A stretch of 64,000 bases of DNA from Streptomyces sp. PH10-H1 (lineage in GTDB: Bacteria; Actinomycetota; Actinomycetes; Streptomycetales; Streptomycetaceae), in contig NZ_JASISZ010000007.1 of NCBI RefSeq assembly GCF_030063355.1, forward strand, positions 1-64,000, written 5' to 3'. Shown here one piece after another: positions 50,512-63,949 of the stretch (positions are counted from its first letter, which is position 1; every line of letters begins with the position of its first letter). Under the pieces are notes generated by a model that saw nothing but the letters and a program-made list of their open reading frames with translations, was not told the DNA's origin and did no database searches. A program made the translations under genes and the position numbers.

Positions 50512-51798
50512 CTACACCGGAGGACCGGCCACGTCCCCGCGCGGCTGGCGCGGCTGTCCCGCCGGATCCTCCTGGGCCAGGAAGAGCGCGAAGACCGGCG
50601 GCCGCTGCTGCAACAGCTCCAGCCGCCCGCCGTCCGCCTCGGCCAGATCGCGGGCCACCGCCAGCCCCAGTCCGGTGGAATTGCGACCGCTCACCGCCCG
50701 CTCGAAGACCCGTGCTCCGAGGTCCGGCGGTACGCCCGGCCCGTCGTCCGTGACCTCGACGACCGCTTGATTCCCTGTCACCCGGGTGTGCAGGCCGACC
50801 GTGCCCGCGCCGTGCATGAGCGAGTTCTCGATCAGGGTGGCCAGCACCTGGGAGACCGCACCCGGGGTGCCGACGGCCCGCAGTCCCGGGGTACCGGACC
50901 GGATGATGGAGCGCCCCTCGCTCTGCGACGCCGGGCGCCACTCCTCCATCTGCTGCTTGATCACATCGTCGAGGTCGAAGTCGACCGCCGAGCCGGAGCG
51001 CGGGTCGCGGGCGTTGGTCAGCAGCCGCTGCACCACATCGGTGAGCCGCTCGACCTGGCCCAGCGCGATCGCCGCCTCTTCCTTGACGGCGTCCTCGTCG
51101 TCGGCGGTGGCGATGATCTCCTCCAACCGCATCGAGAGCGCCGTCAGGGGCGTACGGAGCTGGTGCGAGGCGTCGGAGGCGAGCCGCCGCTCGGCGGTCA
51201 GCATCCGGCCGATTCGCTCCGCGCTCGCGTCGAGGACGTCGGCGATCCGGTCCAGCTCGGGAACGCCGTAGCGGCGGTGCCGCGGGCGCGGATCGCCGGA
51301 TCCGAGCCGTTCTGCGGTCTCCGCGAGGTCGGTCAGCGGGCTGCCGAGCCGGCGCGCCTGCCGTACCGCGAGCACCACGGCCGCCAGCACCGCGAGCAGC
51401 GCGACCGCCAGGATGACCAGCAGGGTCCTGCCGATCTCCTGGCTGATCTTGGAGCGGGACTCCTCGACGACCACGGTCGCACCGTTGTCGCCGGTCTGGG
51501 TGGACTTGATCACCCGGCCGCCCGGCGGCGTCCCGATCTCGATCGGCGCGCTGCCCGGCACCCGCACGATCGCGAACCGGTCGGCGGCGACCTGCTGGGC
51601 CAGCGAGTCGGCGTCGACCTTCTCCCCGCTGGCGCGCCGGCTGTCGACGCTGCCCGACAGCCGCACCGCCTCGGAGTCGACGCTCTCCTGCGCGCTGTTC
51701 TCGATCGTGCGGGTCTCGACGATGACGAGCGAGAGCCCGAAGACGGCGATGACGACGAGCACGACAGCGAGCGTGGAGGAGATCAGTCGGCGGCGCAT
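50512..51798 (-). CDS. Two-component sensor histidine kinase
   Basis: 428 residues. Two membrane helices (about 6-27 and 125-147) flank an extracytoplasmic sensor of about 95 residues. A HAMP-like linker, the H box SDASHQLRTPLTAL with the phospho-accepting His (about residue 215), and the HATPase domain (VLATLIENSLMHGAG, VTDDGPGV, STGLGLAVA) follow. It lies 23 bp downstream of the response-regulator gene, its likely partner. The signal is unknown. Confidence 0.93.
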   Translation of the reverse strand: MRRRLISSTLAVVLVVIAVFGLSLVIVETRTIENSAQESVDSEAVRLSGSVDSRRASGEKVDADSLAQQVAADRFAIVRVPGSAPIEIGTPPGGRVIKSTQTGDNGATVVVEESRSKISQEIGRTLLVILAVALLAVLAAVVLAVRQARRLGSPLTDLAETAERLGSGDPRPRHRRYGVPELDRIADVLDASAERIGRMLTAERRLASDASHQLRTPLTALSMRLEEIIATADDEDAVKEEAAIALGQVERLTDVVQRLLTNARDPRSGSAVDFDLDDVIKQQMEEWRPASQSEGRSIIRSGTPGLRAVGTPGAVSQVLATLIENSLMHGAGTVGLHTRVTGNQAVVEVTDDGPGVPPDLGARVFERAVSGRNSTGLGLAVARDLAEADGGRLELLQQRPPVFALFLAQEDPAGQPRQPRGDVAGPPV

Positions 51799-51821
51799 GG
51801 GAGAAGGGTGTCAGCCTTCGG

Positions 51822-52496
51822 CTAGTTCTTCTCGAACCGGAACCCGACACCGCGCACGGTGGAGATGTACCGGGGAGCCGTCGCGTCGTCGCCGAGCTTC
51901 TTGCGCAGCCACGAGATGTGCATGTCGAGGGTCTTGGTCGACGACCACCAGGTGGTGTCCCAGACCTCGCGCATCAGCTGCTCACGGGTGACCACCCGGC
52001 CCGCGTCCCGTACCAGGACACGCAGCAGGTCGAACTCCTTCGCGGTGAGTTGCAGCTCGTCGTCGCCCATCCAGGCGCGGTGCGACTCGACGTCGATCCG
52101 TACCCCGTGGGTGGACGGCTGCGGCGCGTCGGTGGTGCCGCGGCGCAGCAGCGCCCGGACCCGCGCCAGCAGTTCGGCGAGCCGGAACGGCTTGGTGACG
52201 TAGTCGTCGGCACCGGCGTCCAGGCCGACCACCGTGTCGACCTCGTCGGCCCTGGCCGTGAGCACCAGCACCGGGAAGGTGTGCCCCTCGGTACGGATCC
52301 TGCGGCACACGTCCAGGCCGTCCATGCCGGGCAGCCCCAGGTCGAGCACCACCAGGTCGACAGCGCCCAGCAGGGCGGCTTCGAGCGCGGTGGGCCCGTC
52401 CTCGCGCACCTCGACCTCGTAACCCTCGCGGCGCAGGGCGCGCGCGAGCGGTTCCGAGATGGATGCGTCGTCCTCGGCAAGAAGTACGCGGGTCAT
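51822..52496 (-). CDS. OmpR-family response regulator
   Basis: 224 residues from the ATG at 52496. The receiver domain has the acidic pocket LLAEDDA, the phospho-accepting Asp in VDLVVLDLGLPGMDG (about residue 51) and the KPF Lys near 101. The winged-helix domain (about 130-220) contains LTAKEFDLLRVLVRDAGRVV and WLRKKLGDD. It precedes the histidine-kinase gene; the pair resembles the Streptomyces systems linked to envelope stress, but the regulon cannot be inferred. Confidence 0.94.
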   Translation of the reverse strand: MTRVLLAEDDASISEPLARALRREGYEVEVREDGPTALEAALLGAVDLVVLDLGLPGMDGLDVCRRIRTEGHTFPVLVLTARADEVDTVVGLDAGADDYVTKPFRLAELLARVRALLRRGTTDAPQPSTHGVRIDVESHRAWMGDDELQLTAKEFDLLRVLVRDAGRVVTREQLMREVWDTTWWSSTKTLDMHISWLRKKLGDDATAPRYISTVRGVGFRFEKN

Positions 52497-52841
52497 GGGC
52501 TTGATGGTAGACCGCGTGGACAGGCGGCGACGTAGCGGTGCCAACAGCCCTGTGAGGTAGGTCTCAAGACGCCCTATAACACGTGTTCGGCTGTCATAAA
52601 GTATTGAATCGCCCGTAGCAGCACTCTGGGACCTTCTGCGCGCAACCCGCGCCGAAGGCCTCTTCTGTGACGGGGCTGGTGCAAACCAGCGAGAGTGACT
52701 GACCTGACGGCCGGGTCCGCCGCGCAAGACCGCGCGGCGGGCGTGGATCCCGGCACGCCCCCATAGCGTGCCGGTGCCGGCCACCCCCCACCGGGCGCGC
52801 GGACTGTTCCGTCGCGCGTCCCGAGCGAACAAGGATCGACC

Positions 52842-54371
52842 ATGGCGTCCAGCCTGACGAAGGACGCCGCCCCGCAGGAGACCCCTGTACCGGGCGGCAA
52901 GACCTTCTTCGGCCACCCCCGCGGCCTGGCCACTCTCTTCATGACCGAGATGTGGGAGCGTTTCAGCTTCTACGGCATGAAGGCCCTTCTCCCGCTCTAC
53001 CTGATCGCCGGCGGTCCCGCCGCCGACAAGGGCGGCCAGGGAGGCGGCCTCGCGATGACCGGGGCCACGGCCATCGCCATCTACTCCATCTACATGGCGA
53101 TGGTGTACCTGCTCGCCATGCCGGGCGGCTGGTTCGGAGACCGGGTCTGGGGACCGCGCAAGACGGTCGCCATCGCGGCCGGCATCATCATGGCCGGCCA
53201 CCTGACACTGGCGATCCCCGGCCAGGCGACGTTCTTCGCCGGCCTCGGACTGGTCGCCCTCGGCTCCGGCCTGCTCAAGGCGAACATCTCGACGATGGTC
53301 GGCCACCTCTACGACGGGCCGGACGACCCGCGTCGCGACGGCGGCTTCACCGTCTTCTACATGGGCATCAACATGGGTGCCTTCTTCGCCCCGCTGGCCA
53401 TCGGCACCGTCGGCCAGAACTACAGCTGGCACCTGGGCTTCGCCCTCGCCGCGGTCGGCATGGCGCTGGGCCTGGTCCAGTTCCTGCTCGGCACCCGTCA
53501 CCTGAGCGAGCGCAGCAGCGTCGTCCCCAAGCCGCTGACGACCGCGGAGCGCGACGCGACCCTGCACAAGGGCCTGATGTGGCTGCTCGCGGCCGTGGCC
53601 TTCTACGGCGTGGTCGTCCTCAGCGGCCACTACACGCTCAACTGGGCGCTGGTCCCGATCACCGTCATCGGTCTGGTGATCCCGGTCGGCGTCCTGGTGC
53701 GCATAAAGCGCGACAAGGATCTGTCGGCCCCCGAACAGTCCAAGATGAGCGGCTACATCTGGTTCTTCGTTGCCGCCGCCGTCTTCTGGATGATCTACGA
53801 CCAGGGCGGATCGACCATGTCGATCTTCGGCGACACGAAGACGCAGGGCGCTCTGTTCGGCTTCGACTTCCCGTCCTCGTGGTTCCAGTCGGTGAACCCG
53901 CTGTTCGTCATGGCGCTGGCTCCGGTCATCGCCTGGGGCTGGATCTGGCTGTCGAAGAAGAACCGCGAACCCAGCACCACGGTGAAGTTCGCCATGGGCC
54001 TGTTCCTCATCGGCGCCTCGTTCTTCGTCTTCGTCGTCCCGATGGGACTGGCCTCGGACGGCACGAAGGTCAGCCCGATGTGGCTGGTCTCGATCTACAT
54101 GATCCAGACCATCGGTGAGCTCTGCCTCTCCCCGGTCGGCCTCTCGGTCACCACCAAGATGGCTCCGGCCAAGTACGGCAGCCAGATGATGGGGGTCTGG
54201 TTCCTCGCGGTCACCGCGGGCGACTGCACCACCAGCCTGCTGTCGATCGCGGGTGTGGACCTGAACGGGACCGGCATGGTCGGCCTGGAGGCCGCCCTCG
54301 CCGTCGTCGCCGGCCTGGCCGTGTGGATGTACCGCAAGAAGGTCGTCGCGCTGATGGGCGACGTCCGCTGA
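52842..54371 (+). CDS. POT/PTR-family peptide transporter
   Basis: 509 residues with about 14 membrane helices. The proton-coupled di-/tripeptide transporter signature in helix 1 is TEMWERFSFYGMKALLPLYL (ExxER motif plus FYG). The PTR2 signature region is visible as FTVFYMGINMGAFFAPLAIG in helix 5. An AAGGAT ribosome-binding site precedes the ATG. It may import peptides for nutrition or signalling. The 345 bp before it contains a 10-bp palindrome (aacacgtgtt, 52578-52587) and no gene. Confidence 0.93.
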   Translation: MASSLTKDAAPQETPVPGGKTFFGHPRGLATLFMTEMWERFSFYGMKALLPLYLIAGGPAADKGGQGGGLAMTGATAIAIYSIYMAMVYLLAMPGGWFGDRVWGPRKTVAIAAGIIMAGHLTLAIPGQATFFAGLGLVALGSGLLKANISTMVGHLYDGPDDPRRDGGFTVFYMGINMGAFFAPLAIGTVGQNYSWHLGFALAAVGMALGLVQFLLGTRHLSERSSVVPKPLTTAERDATLHKGLMWLLAAVAFYGVVVLSGHYTLNWALVPITVIGLVIPVGVLVRIKRDKDLSAPEQSKMSGYIWFFVAAAVFWMIYDQGGSTMSIFGDTKTQGALFGFDFPSSWFQSVNPLFVMALAPVIAWGWIWLSKKNREPSTTVKFAMGLFLIGASFFVFVVPMGLASDGTKVSPMWLVSIYMIQTIGELCLSPVGLSVTTKMAPAKYGSQMMGVWFLAVTAGDCTTSLLSIAGVDLNGTGMVGLEAALAVVAGLAVWMYRKKVVALMGDVR

Positions 54372-54515: not shown

Positions 54516-55901
54516 TCAGTGGCGCAGCTTGCGCCAGGGAGTGAAGGTGAAGACGGCGCCGCCGATGAGGAGGACGGTGCCCGCGACGAGGCCGAGGGCC
54601 CGCAGGGAGCCGTCGTTCTCGGCGCCGGTGTTGGCGAGGCCGCCGGAGGTGGCCGAGTTGTTGTCGCCGGTGGTGCCGCCGGAGACGCCGCCGCTGCTGC
54701 CCTTCTCCTTGATGTCGAGGGTGAGCGAGGCGTCGACGGCCTTGGTCGGAGTGCAGGTGGCGACCGTGGTTCCGCCATCGGTGAGCTTGATGACGATGGC
54801 GCCGGGAGTGAGCGTCACCTTGCCGGTCTTACCCGGCGAATACGTGCCCTTCAGATCATCGAGGGTGACCGGGGAGTTCGCGGTGACCGCCTGGGTGTTG
54901 GGCGGGCCGGTGACGGCGACCGTGCCGGAGTCGGCGCCGCCGACCTTGACGGCCATGCTCGGAGTGATGAAGCCCTTGGGGAAGGGCGCGGGGGAATTCA
55001 TGACGCTGCCGATGAACTTCACCGCGAGGTCGTAGCCCCCGCTGCTCTTGGTGGCGTCGATGGCGATCTTGGCGGTCGGCTTGCCGAACGTCCCGCAGTC
55101 GACGGGTACGGAGACCGTGGTGCCCTTGTGGACGGTGCCGTTGGGCTCACCGCTCCCTCCCGTCGTGCCGCCGGAGGTCGTGGTGCCGCCGGTCGTTCCT
55201 CCGGAGGCCGTCGTGCCGCCGGAGGTTGTACCGCCGGAGGCCGTGGTGCCGCCCGACGCGGTCGTGCCACCAGCGCTCGTCGTTCCGCCGGAGGTCGTCG
55301 TGCCACCGGACGTCGTCGTACCGCCCGTGCCGCCGCTGCCCGTCACCTTGATGGTTACCGCGACCGGGACGCCGGCGGTCGGCGCGCAGGCGGTGTCGGT
55401 CGACATGATGTAGTTGGCGTTGATGTTGTACGCGCCGGGCGACAGGGTGACGTCACCGGCGGCGGTCAGCTTGAGCTTGCCCTTCATGTCGGACAGCACC
55501 ATGGGGCTGTTCTTGGGGATCGGGGGGTTCGTCCGCGTGCCGGCGACGTCCAGCGACCCGGTCTGCGCGCCGCCGATCGTGACCTTGCCGGTGGGCAGGA
55601 CCGAGTTGGCGGGCAGATCGGCGACGCCGGGGTTCTCCGAGGCGGCCTGCACCATCTTCCATGTCACGTCGATGGTGTCGCCGACCTTGGCGGTCGCGGG
55701 CGCGGTGACGTCCGCCTTGGTGGTCCCGTTGATGTCGGGCAGGTTCGCGATCTTCGGCGGTATGCACTTGGTCGCGAATGAGGACACGGCGGCCTGCGCG
55801 GGTGCCGCGATCAGCAGCGCCGAGCCGCCGCCGAGCATGAGCGCGAGACTGACCGCGGTCGCGGTCCTGCTCCTCCGCGGTCGCGTTGGTCGATTCGTCA
55901 C
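54516..55901 (-). CDS. LANTG-anchored surface protein with Gly/Thr/Ser linker
   Basis: 461 residues from the GTG at 55901 (overlapping the upstream stop). A signal peptide (TAVSLALMLGGGSALLIAAPAQA) leads to a beta domain of about 165 residues (FATKCIPPKIANLPDING). A long GGTTTSGG-type linker (55160-55340) follows, then a second beta domain (KVGGADSGTVAVTGPPN). The C-terminus is a wall-sorting signal: LANTG, about 27 mostly hydrophobic residues, and RKLRH. Streptomyces class E sortases recognise LAxTG, so wall anchoring is likely. Both domains have relatives in this locus. Confidence 0.85.
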   Translation of the reverse strand: MTNRPTRPRRSRTATAVSLALMLGGGSALLIAAPAQAAVSSFATKCIPPKIANLPDINGTTKADVTAPATAKVGDTIDVTWKMVQAASENPGVADLPANSVLPTGKVTIGGAQTGSLDVAGTRTNPPIPKNSPMVLSDMKGKLKLTAAGDVTLSPGAYNINANYIMSTDTACAPTAGVPVAVTIKVTGSGGTGGTTTSGGTTTSGGTTSAGGTTASGGTTASGGTTSGGTTASGGTTGGTTTSGGTTGGSGEPNGTVHKGTTVSVPVDCGTFGKPTAKIAIDATKSSGGYDLAVKFIGSVMNSPAPFPKGFITPSMAVKVGGADSGTVAVTGPPNTQAVTANSPVTLDDLKGTYSPGKTGKVTLTPGAIVIKLTDGGTTVATCTPTKAVDASLTLDIKEKGSSGGVSGGTTGDNNSATSGGLANTGAENDGSLRALGLVAGTVLLIGGAVFTFTPWRKLRH

Positions 55902-57121
55902 GTGCTTCCCTTCGAAGGTGGACGTTCGGTACTCGGTGCGGATGCCGGTGGGGGTGCGGGAGTCGGTGGGGGTGCGGGAGTCGGTGCGGATGCGGGAGTC
56001 GGTGCGGATGCCGGTGTGGCAACCGGTGGGGATGCCGGTGCGGCCGGCAGGGTGCCCTGGCTGAACCAGGGCAGGGCCCCCGTGTCGTCCGCCGGACGGG
56101 AGTCCGGCGGGTGCGCGCCGTTGGGCGACGGCTTCGGGGGCGGCGACCGCCGTGGCGCGGGCAGGTGGAACAGCGCGGCGGGCCGACAAGGGGCCTTGCG
56201 GCGACGGCCGGAGGCATAGATCGTGCCGGGCAGCCGCGGGCGCGCCTTGTCGACCACGGCCATGCCGATACGGAAGACCGCGGCCGGGACGACCACGCAC
56301 AGCAGGATCCAGAAGAGGGTGATGCCCCACGGCCGGCCGACGTCCCACGGTTCGGTGACGAGCACCTTGCCGCCGTACTTGAGCTGGACCTTGTAGTCGC
56401 CGTGCGCACCGGAGGCCAGCTCGACGGGCAGCTTGATCTGCTGCTTCATGCCCGGCGCCACACTGCCGCGCCACTGCTGCTCCTCCCACTGCGGCGCGAA
56501 GACCCCGTGCGAGACACCGACCTGGAACACCGGGTCCTTGGTCGGCGCCGAGCCGAGATTGCCGACGGTGAAGACGAGTTGGCGCTGCGGCGGTGAGCCG
56601 AACCAGTTGAGCAGACCGCTGCTCCCCTCAAGCCTGGCCGTGAGCACCGCGAGCCGCCCGCCGCCGGCCGGCTGCGGCCGATCGGCGACCGGGTGTCCGG
56701 TGACGACGAAGGGCGCGTCGACGGAGACGGAGTCGCCCATCACCGTCGCGACATGCACCACGCAGGGGCAGGGCTTGGGCGGTGCGGCGGCCAATAGCTT
56801 CTGGGTGAAGCCGCCCTTGGCGTCGGTGGTGACCGCCCGGCCGGACTCGTTGGAGCAGGAGTTGGTGCCGCCGATCGCGTTCTGGCCGCAGACCAGCAGG
56901 GTGAGCAGCGTGGCCGGCTTCCAGCCCCGCCCGGTGACGGTGATCTCCGCGCCGGGCTTGGCCTGTTGCGGGGAGAGCGCCACCGCGGGTTTCTGATCCG
57001 CCGATGGTGTCAGGACCGTCGCGCGCGCGGGCTGCGCGGTGAGCGCGGACAGTACGAGCAGCCCCGCGGCGAGCACGGCGGCCGCCAGCGCCCGGAGTCG
57101 TTCCCTGTGCATCGTGCTCAC
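55898..57121 (-). CDS. Membrane-anchored surface protein with neocarzinostatin-like domain
   Basis: 407 residues from the GTG at 57121, which overlaps the stop of the DUF916 gene. A signal peptide (LRALAAAVLAAGLLVLSAL) is followed by VALSPQQAKPGAEITVTGRGW and a Cys-rich Ig-like fold resembling the neocarzinostatin apoprotein family (CGQNAIGGTNSCSNES). A second beta domain precedes a membrane helix (about 275-297) and a Pro/Ala/Thr-rich cytoplasmic tail of about 100 residues. It may be an envelope scaffold. The neocarzinostatin resemblance is by eye. Confidence 0.78.
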   Translation of the reverse strand: MSTMHRERLRALAAAVLAAGLLVLSALTAQPARATVLTPSADQKPAVALSPQQAKPGAEITVTGRGWKPATLLTLLVCGQNAIGGTNSCSNESGRAVTTDAKGGFTQKLLAAAPPKPCPCVVHVATVMGDSVSVDAPFVVTGHPVADRPQPAGGGRLAVLTARLEGSSGLLNWFGSPPQRQLVFTVGNLGSAPTKDPVFQVGVSHGVFAPQWEEQQWRGSVAPGMKQQIKLPVELASGAHGDYKVQLKYGGKVLVTEPWDVGRPWGITLFWILLCVVVPAAVFRIGMAVVDKARPRLPGTIYASGRRRKAPCRPAALFHLPAPRRSPPPKPSPNGAHPPDSRPADDTGALPWFSQGTLPAAPASPPVATPASAPTPASAPTPAPPPTPAPPPASAPSTERPPSKGST

Positions 57122-58200
57122 GCCTGTCCGCCCCTGCTTCCCACGCTTGTCACGCTTGTCACGCCGGCCGTTGTCTCCTCCGCTGCGCCCTCCGGAGCTT
57201 CCTCCGGTGACCGCGGCGGACGGTTCCTGCGGCGCCGGACGGTGAACCAGGCGGACAGGAGCGCGAGTCCGGCGAGCAGCACTCCGACGGCGAGCCACGG
57301 GACGGCGTAGAACGAGGCGCTGCCGGTCTCGTTCAGCTCGCCCCGGTCGGTGGTGACGGTCAGTTTCACGCTCACCCGGTCGAACTGCGGCGCCCCGGCC
57401 CATTTCTCGGTCAGTTCGACCTGCTGGCCGGGCAGCAGCTCCAGCGGCAGTCCCTTGGCCTGGCGGTCCAGCAGGGTGCTGCCGAACAGCCCGGTGGCCT
57501 TGAGCCGCAGGCGCGGCAGCAGGGAGACGTTGCCGCGGTTGACGAGGGTGTAGTGGATGGTGGCGTTGCTCGCGCCGGTGCCGGGCAGCCAGGGCTGGCC
57601 GTGGTCGATACGGACGTTCTCGACGGACAGCGCGGGGAGGCTGGGCCCGCTCACCCGGAGGTAGATCCGGGCCCCGACGGCCCGCCGTACGCCGACCGCG
57701 ACGTTGCCCTTGCTCTTGTCGGTCTCGGTGTTGAGGGCGACGATCGCGCCGGGATGGTCCCCGGGGGCGGCGGTGTCGGGGACGGTGAGGGTGAACGGGA
57801 TGTCGGCGCGGGTCCTGGGCGGCACGGTGAGACTGCCCTGTGCGAGCTTCACCCAGGTGCCGATGTCCTTGTTGGTCTCCTCGGGACCGCGGACGGCGAA
57901 GCCGCCGTCGCGCGGGGTGTTGTAGGCGTCGGCGCCGTAGATCTTGAAGGTCATGGGCGCGTCGGAGAGGTTGGAGACCGAGACCTTGTCCTTCACGGTG
58001 GTCCCCGGGCCCGCCTCCAGGGTGAAGAACTGACGTTCCTGGCTGGTGCTCGTCCTGTCCTTCGCCCCGCCCGCGGGGGCGGGGAAGACCGACCAGCGCC
58101 CGTTGTCCGCGGCGCCGGCCGGTCCTGCCGCGGGACCGAGGCCGATGCCGAGCAGCGCGGCGACCGTCAGCAGCACTGCGTACGCCTTGGCCCTCGACAT
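57118..58200 (-). CDS. DUF916-type WxL peptidoglycan-domain protein
   Basis: 360 residues from the ATG at 58200, with GAGGGAG about 9 nt upstream. Signal peptide, then a domain with FTLEAGPGTTVKDKVSVSNL and ADIPFTLTVPDTAAPGDHPG, features of the DUF916/WxL-interacting peptidoglycan-binding domain. A second Ig-like domain, a membrane helix (about 300-322) and a charged cytoplasmic tail follow. In Firmicutes these partners bind WxL proteins on the wall; the gene immediately upstream encodes a WxL-like protein, supporting the same pairing here. Confidence 0.85.
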   Translation of the reverse strand: MSRAKAYAVLLTVAALLGIGLGPAAGPAGAADNGRWSVFPAPAGGAKDRTSTSQERQFFTLEAGPGTTVKDKVSVSNLSDAPMTFKIYGADAYNTPRDGGFAVRGPEETNKDIGTWVKLAQGSLTVPPRTRADIPFTLTVPDTAAPGDHPGAIVALNTETDKSKGNVAVGVRRAVGARIYLRVSGPSLPALSVENVRIDHGQPWLPGTGASNATIHYTLVNRGNVSLLPRLRLKATGLFGSTLLDRQAKGLPLELLPGQQVELTEKWAGAPQFDRVSVKLTVTTDRGELNETGSASFYAVPWLAVGVLLAGLALLSAWFTVRRRRNRPPRSPEEAPEGAAEETTAGVTSVTSVGSRGGQA

Positions 58201-58239
58201 GTCTGGCATCTCCCTCGGTCCGAGTCAACTGACTGTGCG

Positions 58240-59574
58240 TCAGGTGAGAGTCAGGGTCAAGACTCCGGAATAGGTTCCTGGAGCGGAGTAGGCCGGCACG
58301 TTCAGCGACAGACCCGCGCCGGCGGTGAACTCGCCTCCGGTCACGGTGCCGTTGGGCGTAGTGGCCAGCGTGGCGCCCGTCGTACCCACGGCGCCGGGCG
58401 AACCGGCGGCACAGGCACTGAGGCTGCCGGCCTTGGCGGTGCAGGACGGCGTCCAGCTGAGCTTGTCGGCGCCGATGACGGCACCCGCCGGACCCTTGAA
58501 GTCGGTGACCGAGCCGGTCAGCGACCAGCCGGCGGCGGCGCCGCGGAAGTCCTTGACGGTGACTGTCTGCAGCGCGCCGGTCGAGGGACCGCCCTGACCG
58601 AAGTTCACCGGGGTCATCGCCACGGTGTCACCGGCCTGGGTCATGGACAGCGTCCCCGGGATGACCGAAGCGTTGAGCTTCTGACTCCCCGGCGGGACCG
58701 GGGTGTTGTCGTTGACCTTGTACGCGATCGGGCCCGCGGCGGTGGCCGGGTCGTAGCTCACGCCCTCGAAGGCCACGATGCCGGTGGTCGCGAGGTCTTT
58801 GACCACGAGCGGGGCGGAGAAGCCGCCCTGCGCGTCAGCGGTAGCGGTGGTCACGTCGCCGGTGGGATGGGACCCGGCCAGCGCGAGGATCGTCACCTTG
58901 GCACCGGCGGTGAACTTGGTACCGGTGACGGCGACCGTGGCACCCGGGTCGCCCTGTGCGGAACCGAGCGCGAGAGTGCGCGGGTTCGGCTGGGTCGCCG
59001 GGCTCGCGGTGACGGTCTCGGAGACCGGCGCGGGCGGGTTGGTGACCGTGCAGACGGTGTCCAGCTCCAGGACGTAGCTGGTGTGGATCGTGTAGTCGCC
59101 GGGCGACAGGGTGATGGCCCCGGCCGCGGTGGCGGTGAAGCTCCCCGTCATGACCAGCGCCGGGAAGGAACCCTTGCCCGGGATGGGCGGGTTGCTCTTG
59201 GGGCCGGTCACGGCGACCGTCCCGGTCTGCGCTCCGGCCAGTACGACGACGGCCCGGGGGGTGACGACATCGGCGGGCAGCGCGATATCGGTCGGGTTGC
59301 TGGCGGCGGCCTTGGAGAGGGTGTAGGTGACCTTGACGGTGTCACCGACCTTCGGGCTCGCGTTGTCTACGGTGACGGACGCGGTGGACGTGCCGTCGAT
59401 GGGCGGAAGCCCGGCCACGGCCGGCGGTATGCAGTGCGTCGGAAAGTCCACCGGAGTACTCGCCTGGGCGGGTGCCGCGAGAACCGCGCCACCACCCACC
59501 ATGAGTGCGGCGGCCCCGAGCACCGCGGCCAGTCTCCGTCCCCGCGTAATGGATCTTCGCGCGTGAGCGATCAT
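58240..59574 (-). CDS. WxL-like secreted surface protein
   Basis: 444 residues from the ATG at 59574 (CAAGGGGACA upstream). After the signal peptide, residues of about 40-190 (FPTHCIPPAVAGLPPIDGTS) are related to the first domain of the LANTG protein. An Ig-like domain follows (about 195-280), then a C-terminal domain with GWSLTGSVTDFKG, the proximal W-x-L motif of WxL domains. It ends YSAPGTYSGVLTLTLT; the distal W-x-L is missing. There is no sortase motif or membrane anchor, as expected for a WxL protein held non-covalently. Confidence 0.78.
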   Translation of the reverse strand: MIAHARRSITRGRRLAAVLGAAALMVGGGAVLAAPAQASTPVDFPTHCIPPAVAGLPPIDGTSTASVTVDNASPKVGDTVKVTYTLSKAAASNPTDIALPADVVTPRAVVVLAGAQTGTVAVTGPKSNPPIPGKGSFPALVMTGSFTATAAGAITLSPGDYTIHTSYVLELDTVCTVTNPPAPVSETVTASPATQPNPRTLALGSAQGDPGATVAVTGTKFTAGAKVTILALAGSHPTGDVTTATADAQGGFSAPLVVKDLATTGIVAFEGVSYDPATAAGPIAYKVNDNTPVPPGSQKLNASVIPGTLSMTQAGDTVAMTPVNFGQGGPSTGALQTVTVKDFRGAAAGWSLTGSVTDFKGPAGAVIGADKLSWTPSCTAKAGSLSACAAGSPGAVGTTGATLATTPNGTVTGGEFTAGAGLSLNVPAYSAPGTYSGVLTLTLT

Positions 59575-59706
59575 CTTGTCCCCTTGATCACAGTCCGGGC
59601 GCAGCGTCCCTGTTCCCCTGCGCTGACGCTGGTCATTGAGACCGGGTGGCCGAAAGAAGTCAATGGCGGTGGCCGACCAGATTTGACTACCCGTCAGAAA
59701 CGTGTC

Positions 59707-59770
59707 CGAGCAGGTCAGCGCGGATATGGCGGCGGACACGCCAGCGGACACGCGAGCGGACATGCCGGGC
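59707..59770. repeat. Short imperfect repeats between the WxL-like and LPQTG genes
   Basis: About four copies of a 10-12-nt unit of the form gcggacacgc occur in the 235-bp gap. Otherwise the gap shows no coding sequence. Confidence 0.55.
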
Positions 59771-59809
59771 CGTGGCACCGGCTCGAAGGGTCGGTGCCAC
59801 GGGTCCGGA

Positions 59810-60508
59810 TCAGTGGGTTCGGGCAGCCCTGCGGGTGAGCCAGAGCGCGCCGGCGACACCGGCCAGCAGCACCGTGCCGCCGAAGGTGCCCAGCGCGACG
59901 GCGCTGTCGGCCGGACCGGTCTGCGGCAGCGTGGAGTCGTTGCCGGGCGGGGTGGTGGCGCTGCCGCCGCCCGCCGCCTTGACGTCCATCGACAGCGAGG
60001 GCTTGGGACTGTTCGTCGCGTTGCAGGTCGTGACGGTGCCGAGCGCCTTGATGATGAGCACCCCGGCCGTGAAGGTGACCTTCCCGGACTTCTTGGGCGT
60101 GTAGGTACCCGTCAGGTCATTGATCTTGATGGGAGTGTTGGCGGGGATCGCCGCGCCGTTCGGGGCCCCGGCCACCGACACCGAGCCCGAGTCCGCACCG
60201 CCGAGGATGATCGTCGCGCTCGGGTTCATCGCGCCCTTGCCCAGCTCGATCGGGCTGGACGAGACACCCTTCTGGAAGGACATCGTGATTGTGTAGCCGG
60301 ATCCGGAGGCGACGCTGGTGATGTCGATGGGCGACACCGCGTCCTTCTTCCCGATCGGCGACTGACAGCTGTAGGCGACATCCACCGTTTCGGCGTGTGC
60401 GGCCGGGGCGACCAGCAGCGCCGCACCCGCCGCGGTCGCCGTCGCGAGGAGCAGCACTCCACCCCGGGCGGCCGTTCTGCTGAGGACGCTGTTCATGACG
60501 TGTTTCAT
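59810..60508 (-). CDS. LPQTG-anchored surface protein
   Basis: 232 residues from the ATG at 60508 (MKHVMNSVLSRTAARGG) with a signal peptide. One beta domain (about 40-185; IILGGADSGSVSVAGAPNGA) is clearly homologous to the second domain of the LANTG protein, sharing GGADSG, a GTY-P-K-GKVT stretch and a VTTC-type strand. The C-terminus is a sorting signal, LPQTG, followed by about 20 hydrophobic residues and RRAARTH. It is the most upstream gene of the surface locus. Confidence 0.82.
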   Translation of the reverse strand: MKHVMNSVLSRTAARGGVLLLATATAAGAALLVAPAAHAETVDVAYSCQSPIGKKDAVSPIDITSVASGSGYTITMSFQKGVSSSPIELGKGAMNPSATIILGGADSGSVSVAGAPNGAAIPANTPIKINDLTGTYTPKKSGKVTFTAGVLIIKALGTVTTCNATNSPKPSLSMDVKAAGGGSATTPPGNDSTLPQTGPADSAVALGTFGGTVLLAGVAGALWLTRRAARTH

Positions 60509-60624: not shown

Positions 60625-61104
60625 TCAGGCGGGAGCCGCCAGTTCGGCCCACACGGTTTTCCCGGGCCGCTCAGCGTGCCGTGCGACACCCCAGTCCGTG
60701 CACAGCCGCTGCACGATGAATATGCCGTGCCCGCCGGGCCGGCCCGCACGGTGCGGAACACGCGGCGCCGGCTCCCCGGCCCCACTGTCGGCCACCTCCA
60801 GCCGCAGCACCTTGGGGCCGCGGACCAGCCGCAGCTCATCGGGGCCGTCCGCGTGCAGACAGGCATTGGTGACCAGCTCGGAGACGACCAGCAGGACGTC
60901 CTCGGCCGCCGCCCGGCGTTCCGGCGAGGAGGCCGGCAGCCAGCCCCAGGCCTGGAGCGCCTCACGAGTGAAGTCGCGGGCGCGCGGAACGATGGCACTC
61001 TCACCCAGCAACGGCAGGATCCGCGTGGAACCGGTCCCGGGCACGACAATGTCGCCCGGGTCCGATTCGCGGTCATCCGCCGCGTGGGGCCGAGTGGTGC
61101 TCAT
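60625..61104 (-). CDS. Anti-sigma factor, RsbW/SpoIIAB-like serine kinase
   Basis: 159 residues. A GHKL ATPase domain: N-box DVLLVVSELVTNACLHADG, then LEVADSGAGEP and GGHGIFIVQRLCTDWG. RsbW-type proteins bind a SigB-group sigma factor and phosphorylate the STAS antagonist. The STAS gene lies about 120 bp upstream in the same direction and a SigB-group sigma gene is divergent, making a complete partner-switching set. The set resembles the S. coelicolor SigI/PrsI/ArsI group from memory. Confidence 0.88.
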   Translation of the reverse strand: MSTTRPHAADDRESDPGDIVVPGTGSTRILPLLGESAIVPRARDFTREALQAWGWLPASSPERRAAAEDVLLVVSELVTNACLHADGPDELRLVRGPKVLRLEVADSGAGEPAPRVPHRAGRPGGHGIFIVQRLCTDWGVARHAERPGKTVWAELAAPA

Positions 61105-61227
61105 CAGCGCCTCACCTCACCGATGTCCGACAGTTTCAGGAGTCTCCTGCCCGGCGAAATCCCGAGGACACCTCGGGAGCTCTACGAAACAGGGTGGAGT
61201 GGGAGTCCGCCATCGGCGACGCTTCCG

Positions 61228-61596
61228 TCACTCCTGCAATGCCTCGTCCAGCGTGGCGTGGACGGTGAACACGGCTTCGGCACCCGTGATCTCGAACACA
61301 CGAGCGACAACCGGCAGCATACCCGTCAGATGCACCCCGCCACCGGCCGCCTCGGCCTTCAGCCGGGCACCGAGCAGCACGTTCAGCCCGGTGGAGTCAC
61401 AGAATTCCAGCTGGGAGCAGTCCACCACGAGCTTTGTGCAGCCCGCGGTCACACACGCCTCGAGCGGCTCGCTGAGCAGCTCGGCGGTGTGATGGTCCAG
61501 CTCGCCCGCAGGCGTGACAACGGCGCTCGTGCCGTGCAGTCGCACGTCCACCTGCAACCGGTCCCGGCCGGCCGTACCGACCATCCCGCGGTCCAT
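61228..61596 (-). CDS. STAS-domain anti-sigma factor antagonist
   Basis: 122 residues of the RsbV/SpoIIAA type. The phosphorylatable Ser is in LEFCDSTGLNVLLGA (about residue 68); the rest is a single STAS fold (VTPAGELDHHTAELL, FEITGAEAVFTVHATLDEAL). Unphosphorylated it should bind the anti-sigma factor and free the sigma factor. It is immediately upstream of the anti-sigma gene and divergent from the sigma gene. Confidence 0.9.
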   Translation of the reverse strand: MDRGMVGTAGRDRLQVDVRLHGTSAVVTPAGELDHHTAELLSEPLEACVTAGCTKLVVDCSQLEFCDSTGLNVLLGARLKAEAAGGGVHLTGMLPVVARVFEITGAEAVFTVHATLDEALQE

Positions 61597-61735
61597 GTGC
61601 GCTCCTCCTGGAATCTTGGGTCATACGCACTCCGAACCCTACGCGCATCGCGAATCACGCGGAAGCTGCCCCACGGCTGCCCTGCAACTGCCCCGTCCGG
61701 GGCCCGTTATGTGCCCTTCGGGCAACCGCCGGGAA

Positions 61736-61763
61736 GTTGCGCTGTCAGCGTGAAAGGGGGTAG
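61736..61763 (+). promoter_or_regulatory. Possible SigB-type promoter of the sigma factor gene
   Basis: GTTG at 61736 and GGGTAG at 61758-61763 have the arrangement of Streptomyces SigB-group promoters (G-N-N-T then GGGTA after 14-16 nt), except that the -35 T is displaced by one position. Autoregulation would follow. A leader of about 95 nt precedes the ATG at 61868. Confidence 0.4.
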
Positions 61764-61867
61764 GGGTTGAACAACACCTATTCGCAAACGGCCGCCTCGG
61801 AGGCGCAGCACACCGTAGTAGAGGCACGGCACCGGCAGCCAGATGCCGTAACCGAGGGAGAAAGAGC

Positions 61868-62749
61868 ATGACACCCCGGCTCGACGCGACAACCGCGACG
61901 ACGACAAGTCCGTCTGTCGGCTCTGACCAACAGGAGCCGGAGGGGCTGCAGGGGCTCCCCGAGATACCGCCGTTCGAAACGGTGGGTCCGGTCGACGCAC
62001 GTGCCCTGTCCAAGACTCTGTTCCGGCGCCTCGACGCGCTGGACGAGGGCACGTACGAGTACTCGTACGTCCGCAACACCCTCGTGGAGCTCAATCTCGC
62101 CCTGGTGAAGTTCGCGGCCTCCCGGTTCCGCACCCGCAGCGAACCGATGGAGGACATCGTCCAGGTCGGCACGATCGGCCTGATCAAGGCGATCGACCGC
62201 TTCGAACTCAGCCGTGGCGTGGAATTCCCCACCTTCGCGATGCCCACGATCATCGGCGAGATCAAGCGCTTCTTCCGTGACACCAGCTGGTCGGTACGCG
62301 TTCCGCGCCGCCTGCAGGAGCTGCGGCTCGACCTGGCCAGGGCCGGCGACGAGCTCGCCCAGCAGCTGGACCGCTCACCGAACGTGGCCGAACTGGCCGA
62401 GCGGCTGCAGATCAGCCCGGACGAGGTCGTCGAGGGCATGGCCGCGAGCAACGCGTACACCGCGAGCTCGCTGGACGCCCAGCCCGACGAGGACGACTCC
62501 GAGGGGGCACTGACCGACCGCATCGGCTACGAGGACCACGACCTCGAGGGCATCGAGTACGTCGAGTCGCTGAAGCCGCTGATCGCCGAGCTCCCGCCGC
62601 GCGACCGCACGATCCTCTCGCTGCGCTTCGTCGGCAATCTCACCCAGTCGGAGATCGGCGAAGAGCTCGGCATCTCACAGATGCACGTCTCGCGGCTGCT
62701 CTCCCGGACGCTGGACCGCCTCCGGCGCGGGCTGCTCGTCGAGGACTGA
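61868..62749 (+). CDS. SigB/SigF-family RNA polymerase sigma factor
   Basis: 293 residues. A short variable N-terminus precedes region 2 (EPMEDIVQVGTIGLIKAIDRF, then FPTFAMPTIIGEIKRFFRDT), region 3 (SVRVPRRLQELRLDL) and region 4 (LPPRDRTILSLRFVGNLTQS, GISQMHVSRLLSRTLDRLR). This is the SigB/SigF group without region 1.1. It is probably held by the divergently encoded RsbW-like protein. In Streptomyces such factors govern osmotic or general stress and sporulation; the closest named factor (SigI-type) cannot be settled from sequence alone. Confidence 0.93.
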   Translation: MTPRLDATTATTTSPSVGSDQQEPEGLQGLPEIPPFETVGPVDARALSKTLFRRLDALDEGTYEYSYVRNTLVELNLALVKFAASRFRTRSEPMEDIVQVGTIGLIKAIDRFELSRGVEFPTFAMPTIIGEIKRFFRDTSWSVRVPRRLQELRLDLARAGDELAQQLDRSPNVAELAERLQISPDEVVEGMAASNAYTASSLDAQPDEDDSEGALTDRIGYEDHDLEGIEYVESLKPLIAELPPRDRTILSLRFVGNLTQSEIGEELGISQMHVSRLLSRTLDRLRRGLLVED

Positions 62750-62776
62750 TCGGCCCGCACGCCGCCGGGACCCCGG

Positions 62777-63949
62777 TCAGGCCACTTGGATCCCGCCCTG
62801 CCACACCCGGCTGACCAGCGGCACTCCGGGCCGGTAGGCCAGATGTACGTGGCTGGGGGCGTCGAGCAGCATCAGGTCCGCTCGCGCTCCCGGCGTGAGG
62901 TGCCCCACATCGTCGCGGCGCAGCGCCCGCGCTCCCCCGAGCGTCGCGGCCGCGACCGCCTCGTCGGGCGTCATCCGCATGTCGCGTACGGCGACGGCGA
63001 TGCAGAACGGCATCGAACTGGTGAAACTCGACCCCGGATTGCAGTCCGTCGAGAGCGCCACCACCGCTCCCGCGTCGATCAGGCGCCGGGCGTCGGGGTA
63101 GGTGGCGCGGGTGGAGAACTCGGCGCCGGGCAGCAGCGTCGCGACCGTGCCGGTGCCGGACGCCAGCGCGTCGACATCCGCGTCCGTCAGATGGGTGCAG
63201 TGGTCGGCGGACGCCGCCCCCAGCTCGACCGCCAGCTGCACCCCGGGGCCGGGGCCGAGCTGGTTCGCGTGGACCCGCGGGACGAGGCCGCGCCGGGCGC
63301 CCGCGGTGAGGATGGCGCGCGCCTGGTCGCCGTCGAACGCCCCCTTCTCGCAGAAGACGTCCACCCAGCGGGCGTGCGGCGCGCAGGCGTCCAGCATCGG
63401 CCCGGTGACCAGATCGACGTACCCGGCCGGGTCGTCCGTGTACTCCGGCGGCACGATGTGCGCCCCGAGGTAGGTCGTCTCCGAGGTATGTCTGCCGGCG
63501 ATCCGCAGGCTGCGTGCCTCGTCCTCCGGCGTGAGGCCGTAGCCGGACTTCGTCTCGATGGTCGTGGTGCCCTGCCGCCGCGCCTCGGCCACATAGCGGG
63601 CCACGTTGGCGTCGAGTTCCTCATCGCTGGCGGCCCGGGTCGCGGCGACCGTGGTCCTGATGCCTCCGGCGGTGTACGGCGTGCCCGACATCCGGGCGTT
63701 GAACTCCTGCGTACGGTCGCCCCCGAACACCAGGTGCGAGTGCGAGTCGACGAATCCGGGGAGCACCGCCCGCCCGCCCGCGTCGAACGTCTCGTCCGCC
63801 GCCGGCGCCCGCCCGGCCGGGCCCACCCACGCGATCCGGCCGTCCTCCATGACCACCGCCGCGTCCGCGACCAGGCCGAGCGGTCCTGCGCCGAGGGATG
63901 GGTCGTTCGTGACCAGGCTGCCGATGTTGGTGATGACGGTCGTGGGCAT
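62777..63949 (-). CDS. hutI: Imidazolonepropionase
   Basis: 390 residues from the ATG at 63949. It is the amidohydrolase that opens the ring of 4-imidazolone-5-propionate to N-formimino-L-glutamate in histidine breakdown. The metal site begins [14 protein letters not shown]; substrate residues are in ETKSGYGLT, the metal/general-base His in [12 protein letters not shown], and the late Asp in [12 protein letters not shown]. Its usual hut partners would lie to the right of the window. Confidence 0.94.

Follow-up and report, generated by a model that had tools for sequence, protein, structure and literature searches.

In a 64,000-nucleotide stretch of the Streptomyces sp. PH10-H1 genome (assembly GCF_030063355.1, contig NZ_JASISZ010000007.1, positions 1 to 64,000; hereafter the window), five minus-strand genes, designated A to E, encode a secreted protein with an LPQTG sorting signal (A), a WxL-domain protein (B), a DUF916 protein (C), a predicted membrane protein with a neocarzinostatin-like domain (D), and a protein with an LANTG sorting signal (E). 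This operon is likely an actinobacterial WxL/DUF916 (Csc) surface system, in which loops in the first domain of C would serve to dock the WxL domain of B. In the sampled family, which consists of 121 genomes and is named the Streptomyces family by inference, the presence of a WxL gene at the locus is strictly linked to a full-length second loop in the DUF916 protein.

The alignment of DUF916 proteins contained 119 rows, of which 91 were WxL-linked (a WxL match within the fetched stretch), 24 were WxL-less, and 4, originating from three loci, were dropped (L108 at a contig edge, and fragments from L119 once and L132 twice). Loop 2 measured 19-29 residues in all 91 WxL-linked rows and 7-15 residues in all 24 WxL-less rows, while the length of loop 1 was 22-25 residues in 91/91 WxL-linked rows and did not exceed 12 residues in 15 of the 24 WxL-less rows. 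Occupancy was down by over half in three segments longer than a single residue (95-113, 163-174, and 205-216), the first of which includes DAYNTPRDGGFA, the most conserved 12-residue run among the 31 nearest WxL-linked rows. In 88 of the 91 WxL-linked rows the WxL gene was either the immediate upstream neighbour or lay in a frame that overlaps (stop-to-stop frame gap of at most 1.7 kb), and at L063, L064, and L067 a same-strand WxL gene was present downstream, past D, two of these loci being cut by contig ends just before C. A broader, unfiltered WxL model detected WxL at an E-value below 0.01 in 106 other loci, and nothing at an E-value below 0.05 in any of the 24 WxL-less loci (best 0.085). 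Since the loops are shortened wherever the operon is without a WxL gene, they are the likely docking place of B on C. That they would bind the N-domain or the Ig-like (immunoglobulin-like) domain of B instead is compatible with the loss of a gene that encodes all three domains, and is nevertheless improbable, as both loops are kept beside WxL proteins without a detected B-type N-domain (e.g., L042-L045, L105-L107, and L109-L111).

A quick tree of 116 DUF916 rows, from which the loop columns had been removed, placed the 24 WxL-less rows in two groups, and a single clade was rejected (approximately unbiased test, p-AU 3.6e-9). The first group comprises two Streptacidiphilus-type loci (L092 and L093), in which the genes to either side of the gap correspond one by one to those of the WxL-bearing sister loci L056, L054, and L032, and the second comprises 22 loci. 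Among the genomes that carry the 24 WxL-less loci, 11 are without a WxL match and 13 hold 17 matches, each of which adjoins a DUF916 gene. The genes that flank the operon in the window are absent at four tested WxL-DUF916 pairs, unlike the WxL-less loci, of which 24/24 keep this setting on both sides. General decay of a weakly constrained DUF916 copy, with no bearing on WxL docking, is a rather unlikely explanation of the loop losses: it would account for the frequent disappearance of the third loop and agrees with the resolution of just two independent losses, but the rest of the WxL-less C proteins is similarly conserved (0.71 versus 0.66 for residues 118-159 and 0.64 versus 0.60 for residues 182-300), and these proteins stay beside A, D, and E at 23 of the 24 loci, with only C and D present at L091.

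Several observations weigh against docking of the WxL domain through these loops. Loop 1 still counts 19 or more residues in 9 of the 24 WxL-less rows, and the frequent loss of segment 205-216 implies that the change extends beyond the DUF916 domain. Moreover, with two independent WxL losses resolved, a sign test on independent pairs gave a p-value of 0.5. A fused B-C AlphaFold model reached a predicted template modelling score (pTM) of 0.40, and the mean predicted local distance difference test (pLDDT) values of C residues 166-175 and 96-105 were 68 and 66 in this model, versus 82-87 and 82-85 for the corresponding blocks when C was modelled alone. Because of this pTM and because the loops were no more ordered in the fused model, no B-C interface was seen; the fold matches of the fused model fell nearly all on its C part and are uninformative on the WxL domain. 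Outside the family, 20 places were fetched from profile matches in Actinomycetota and 19 DUF916 rows were obtained, of which 15 had WxL in the stretch and a loop 2 of 17-31 residues. The other 4 of the 19, in which no WxL was found by profile, keep a loop 2 of 20-23 residues, which again argues against the proposed coupling. In three of these four (L145, L151, and L153) the gene just upstream encodes a WxL-like C-terminal tail, recognized by eye, and these upstream proteins are possibly divergent WxL relatives that the models missed; the fourth is L146. The interaction of the WxL and DUF916 proteins that had been proposed in an earlier, sequence-only reading of this DNA is backed by the short loops of operons without WxL, and not by the fused model.

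The assignment of B to the WxL family relies on its relatives. B alone scored 18.1 bits against PF13731 (20.8 bits for the domain alone), below the cut-off of 25, and the sequence-only reading, in which the domains were called by eye, was in this respect upheld by profile for C and left below the cut-offs for B and D. The sample of WxL stretches consisted of 102 sequences, i.e., that of B and 101 of the 114 from Streptomyces-family loci, after 13 near-copies, fragments, or outliers had been left out, including both very divergent stretches of L124. In this sample, 69/102 stretches matched PF13731 at E-values up to 0.01 (best 1e-11), which supports the homology that the sequence-only reading had supposed. 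The D, R, and W of the proximal motif, assessed by alignment column, were present in 102/102 stretches, and the third residue of W-x-L was L, V, or I in 94. These features of the first motif (D at W-8 and R at W-6) have been described previously (PMC9772566). At the distal place Trp was found in 0/102 stretches, with Leu in 75, Ile in 11, and other residues in 16, and an earlier, unselected count of 111 full stretches gave the same absence of distal Trp, with a stricter first-motif pattern in 99. The presence of the proximal and absence of the distal motif, already noticed in B, whose letters at the two places are DFRGAAAGWSL and YSGVLTLTLT (Leu for Trp), is therefore a trait of the whole sampled clade and not peculiar to B. 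The genome of the window, 8.5 Mb in size, holds one WxL match. Across 296 Actinomycetota genomes the Pfam models detected DUF916 in 28 and WxL in 10, the WxL model missing the window's own B.

Most of the named relatives of B among its best 120 RefSeq matches are labelled beta-xylosidase, a domain that B does not contain, and this label is likely a propagated misname. B as a carbohydrate-active enzyme with its neighbours as a surface support would fit these names and the weak match of the WxL profile to two glycoside hydrolase PDB chains (E-value 0.0015, approximately 25 residues), but it is hardly credible, as the homology found for B is to WxL. No glycoside hydrolase domain was detected in B with Pfam (E-values up to 10) or NCBIfam (E-values up to 1), and the beta-xylosidase reading was rejected. 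In addition, another genome of the same genus (L133, G021:C152) carries a homologue of B that is interrupted by an in-frame stop and looks like a WxL gene in decay.

C exceeded the cut-off of PF06030 (36.6 versus 27.3 bits), and its fold matched chain C of PDB entry 9i25, covering both Ig-like domains of EfmWxLIP1 of Enterococcus faecium, of which the free form (9i1y) and the form bound to a long WxL protein (9i25) are available, at about 15% identity. The Pfam search gave no DUF3324 hit in C, notwithstanding the coverage of both EfmWxLIP1 domains by the fold match, and single-sequence PDB searches with B, C, and D gave nothing useful. Periplasmic pilus chaperones (FimC, CfaA, and Caf1M) ranked under the WxLIP entries and under many single-domain glycoside hydrolase matches, and they provide an analogy to C only, with no sequence relationship shown. 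The basic tail that follows the membrane helix suggests that C resides in the bacterium's own membrane. RefSeq already names many relatives of C (best 120 matches) as WxL protein peptidoglycan domain-containing proteins.

The two proteins with sorting signals share domains with B and with each other. The N-domain of B shares 47% identity with the first domain of E (E-value 2e-40), which bears out the earlier suggestion that the WxL-like protein shares a domain with a sortase substrate, and A is 43% identical to the second domain of E (E-value 7e-30); E thus carries, besides its sorting signal, a B-type and an A-type domain in tandem. A exceeds the cut-off of the NCBIfam LPXTG_anchor model. Among the 41 full or WxL-less loci, the motif of A was LPxTG in 35 by script (36 when the oddly sorted L089 is counted) and that of E was LAxTG in 38, so that the operon pairs two motif types. 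D scored 23 bits against neocarzinostatin (PF00960), under the cut-off of 25. A WxL-DUF916-D neighbourhood also occurs outside the Streptomyces family (L138, L139, and L148), and the D partner may therefore predate the family.

Among the 121 family genomes, a B match was found in 62, which may rest on the N-domain alone, and a C match in 74, with all 62 within the 74. Orthologues scattered without a DUF916 gene were thus not encountered, since 62/62 genomes with a B match have a DUF916 match; among the matches listed, additional WxL proteins located away from DUF916 matches were nevertheless seen in close relatives of the window (e.g., G079:C1:3691308-3692441) and in genomes with many WxL proteins. 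The WxL and DUF916 pair that the sequence-only reading described in a Streptomyces is indeed present, and the system is common in this family. Mapping of gene families around DUF916 matches in 118 stretches, including the window, revealed the full A-B-C-D-E locus, the WxL-DUF916 pair alone, the WxL-less A-C-D-E locus, a large WxL protein with DUF916, and multi-WxL clusters. In some genera (L059 and L062-L067), DUF916 and D are clustered with several WxL genes, LAxTG proteins, and a small WxL protein, a layout nearer to that of Firmicutes. The nearest named relatives are Streptomyces sp. SPB162, H39-S7, and S. fildesensis, with C 90-91% identical (in a search of genome contigs, with only three near relatives), and the repeated A-B-C-D-E order in related genomes indicates that the arrangement is not due to chance.

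Firmicutes account for over 91% of WxL sequences (PMC9772566), and their Csc clusters encode CscA (DUF916), CscB and CscC (WxL), and CscD (LPxTG) (PMC1534035), the LPxTG protein being usual but not essential (PMC9772566). As these clusters are described in the available text of PMC1534035, PMC10599100, and PMC9772566, they share with the operon a DUF916 protein with a membrane helix, a protein with a C-terminal WxL domain, sortase-type proteins (here A and E), and signal peptides, all within one cluster. In contrast to the same descriptions, one WxL gene was found in the whole Streptomyces genome instead of at least two, the WxL domain has a single Trp, a neocarzinostatin-like membrane protein is added, the sortase-type proteins are larger and have domains in common with the WxL protein, and LAxTG occurs besides LPxTG. 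The LANTG of E corresponds to the LAXTG substrates of class E sortases in Streptomyces, from which A differs by its LPxTG, going by the available text of PMC5148588. The DUF916 partner has been explained as host-binding, with its helix entering the host membrane (PMC10599100), and DUF916 genes are reported among the frequent neighbours of another protein type, Ang-2 (PMC12537917). The conserved Streptomyces-type form and the basic tail of C argue for a role that involves no animal host, with the helix anchored in the bacterium's own membrane. No account of the operon was found in the open literature, judged from titles and abstract openings, and as far as the searches show the operon, the single-Trp WxL form, and the joint absence of WxL and the loops are undescribed.

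In the proposed model, loops in the first domain of the DUF916 membrane protein C would form the docking site for the C-terminal WxL domain of B, with the predicted sortase-anchored proteins A and E and the predicted membrane protein D as neighbours. B would attach non-covalently to C and peptidoglycan and so be displayed, and E would covalently carry relatives of the domains of B and A on the wall, so that one kind of cargo domain would have two kinds of anchor. An assembled surface complex with covalent members may thus be envisaged, its most likely role, as a guess, being in envelope architecture or hyphal adhesion. In some lineages B would have been dropped from the operon, with many Streptomyces-type genomes keeping a WxL-DUF916 pair elsewhere, after which the likely docking loops may have disappeared from the DUF916 copy that stayed behind in the retained A-C-D-E set. 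It is fairly plausible that DUF916 proteins exist in two states, one holding WxL with the loops in place and one free of WxL with the loops cut, that at least two in-place losses of the WxL gene, both attended by disappearance of the same loops, map the docking surface, and that the WxL-free A-DUF916-D-E set works as an independent surface machine with no need for WxL. The natural loop deletions point to residues for WxL-binding tests and show that a DUF916 gene is retained in genomes without a detected WxL gene, and the model is the first testable one for a widely conserved surface operon.

The reading frames of all five genes were confirmed, including their minus-strand location, tight or coupled spacing, and LPQTG and LANTG motifs (Table 1). 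A and B are separated by 235 bases and B and C by 30 bases, and the C stop and D start, like the D stop and E start, overlap in GTGA, allowing a GTG start for D and E. A signal peptide is apparent by eye in all five proteins.

Table 1. Positions in the window of the operon genes, their features, and the flanking blocks
Feature	Positions	Strand	Description
Gene A	59810..60508	-	232-residue secreted protein; one N-type beta domain, LPQTG sorting signal; signal peptide by eye
Gene B	58240..59574	-	444-residue WxL-domain protein; N-domain, Ig-like domain, C-terminal WxL domain
Gene C	57118..58209	-	363-residue DUF916 (WxLIP) protein; two Ig-like domains, C-terminal membrane helix
Gene D	55898..57121	-	Neocarzinostatin-like domain, further region, membrane helix, Pro-rich tail; helix and tail read from sequence
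Gene E	54516..55901	-	LANTG protein; two N-type domains with a Gly/Thr-rich stretch between
LPQTG sorting motif of A	59915..59929	-	
WxL domain of B	58243..58719	-	C-terminal
Proximal WxL motif of B	58519..58551	-	DFRGAAAGWSL; Asp at W-8, Arg at W-6
Distal motif place of B	58243..58272	-	YSGVLTLTLT; Leu where Trp would stand
Loop 1 of C	57859..57933	-	Residues 93-117; holds DAYNTPRDGGFA
Loop 2 of C	57667..57732	-	Residues 160-181; hairpin joining the last two strands of the DUF916 domain
Loop 3 of C	57562..57597	-	Residues 205-216; second domain; often, not strictly, shortened in WxL-less loci
Membrane helix of C	57226..57300	-	C-terminal; helix 304-328 in the model, hydrophobic by sequence; basic tail after it, read from sequence
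LANTG sorting motif of E	54624..54638	-	
Flanking block	50512-54371		Operon lies between the two blocks
Flanking block	60625-63949		Operon lies between the two blocks

A promoter scan of the operon region found none, and 4 terminator-like sites were observed versus 2.8 expected, all on the plus strand. On one side, the operon is flanked by a DraK-type kinase and its regulator, together a DraK/DraR-type two-component system, and a POT transporter, and on the other side by an anti-sigma ATPase, a STAS protein, a sigma factor, and a HutI-like protein. In Streptomyces coelicolor, DraK/R corresponds to SCO3062/63 (PMC9739842) and the SigI set to SCO3066-3068 (PMC9739823), and these genes would be the counterparts of those flanking the operon.
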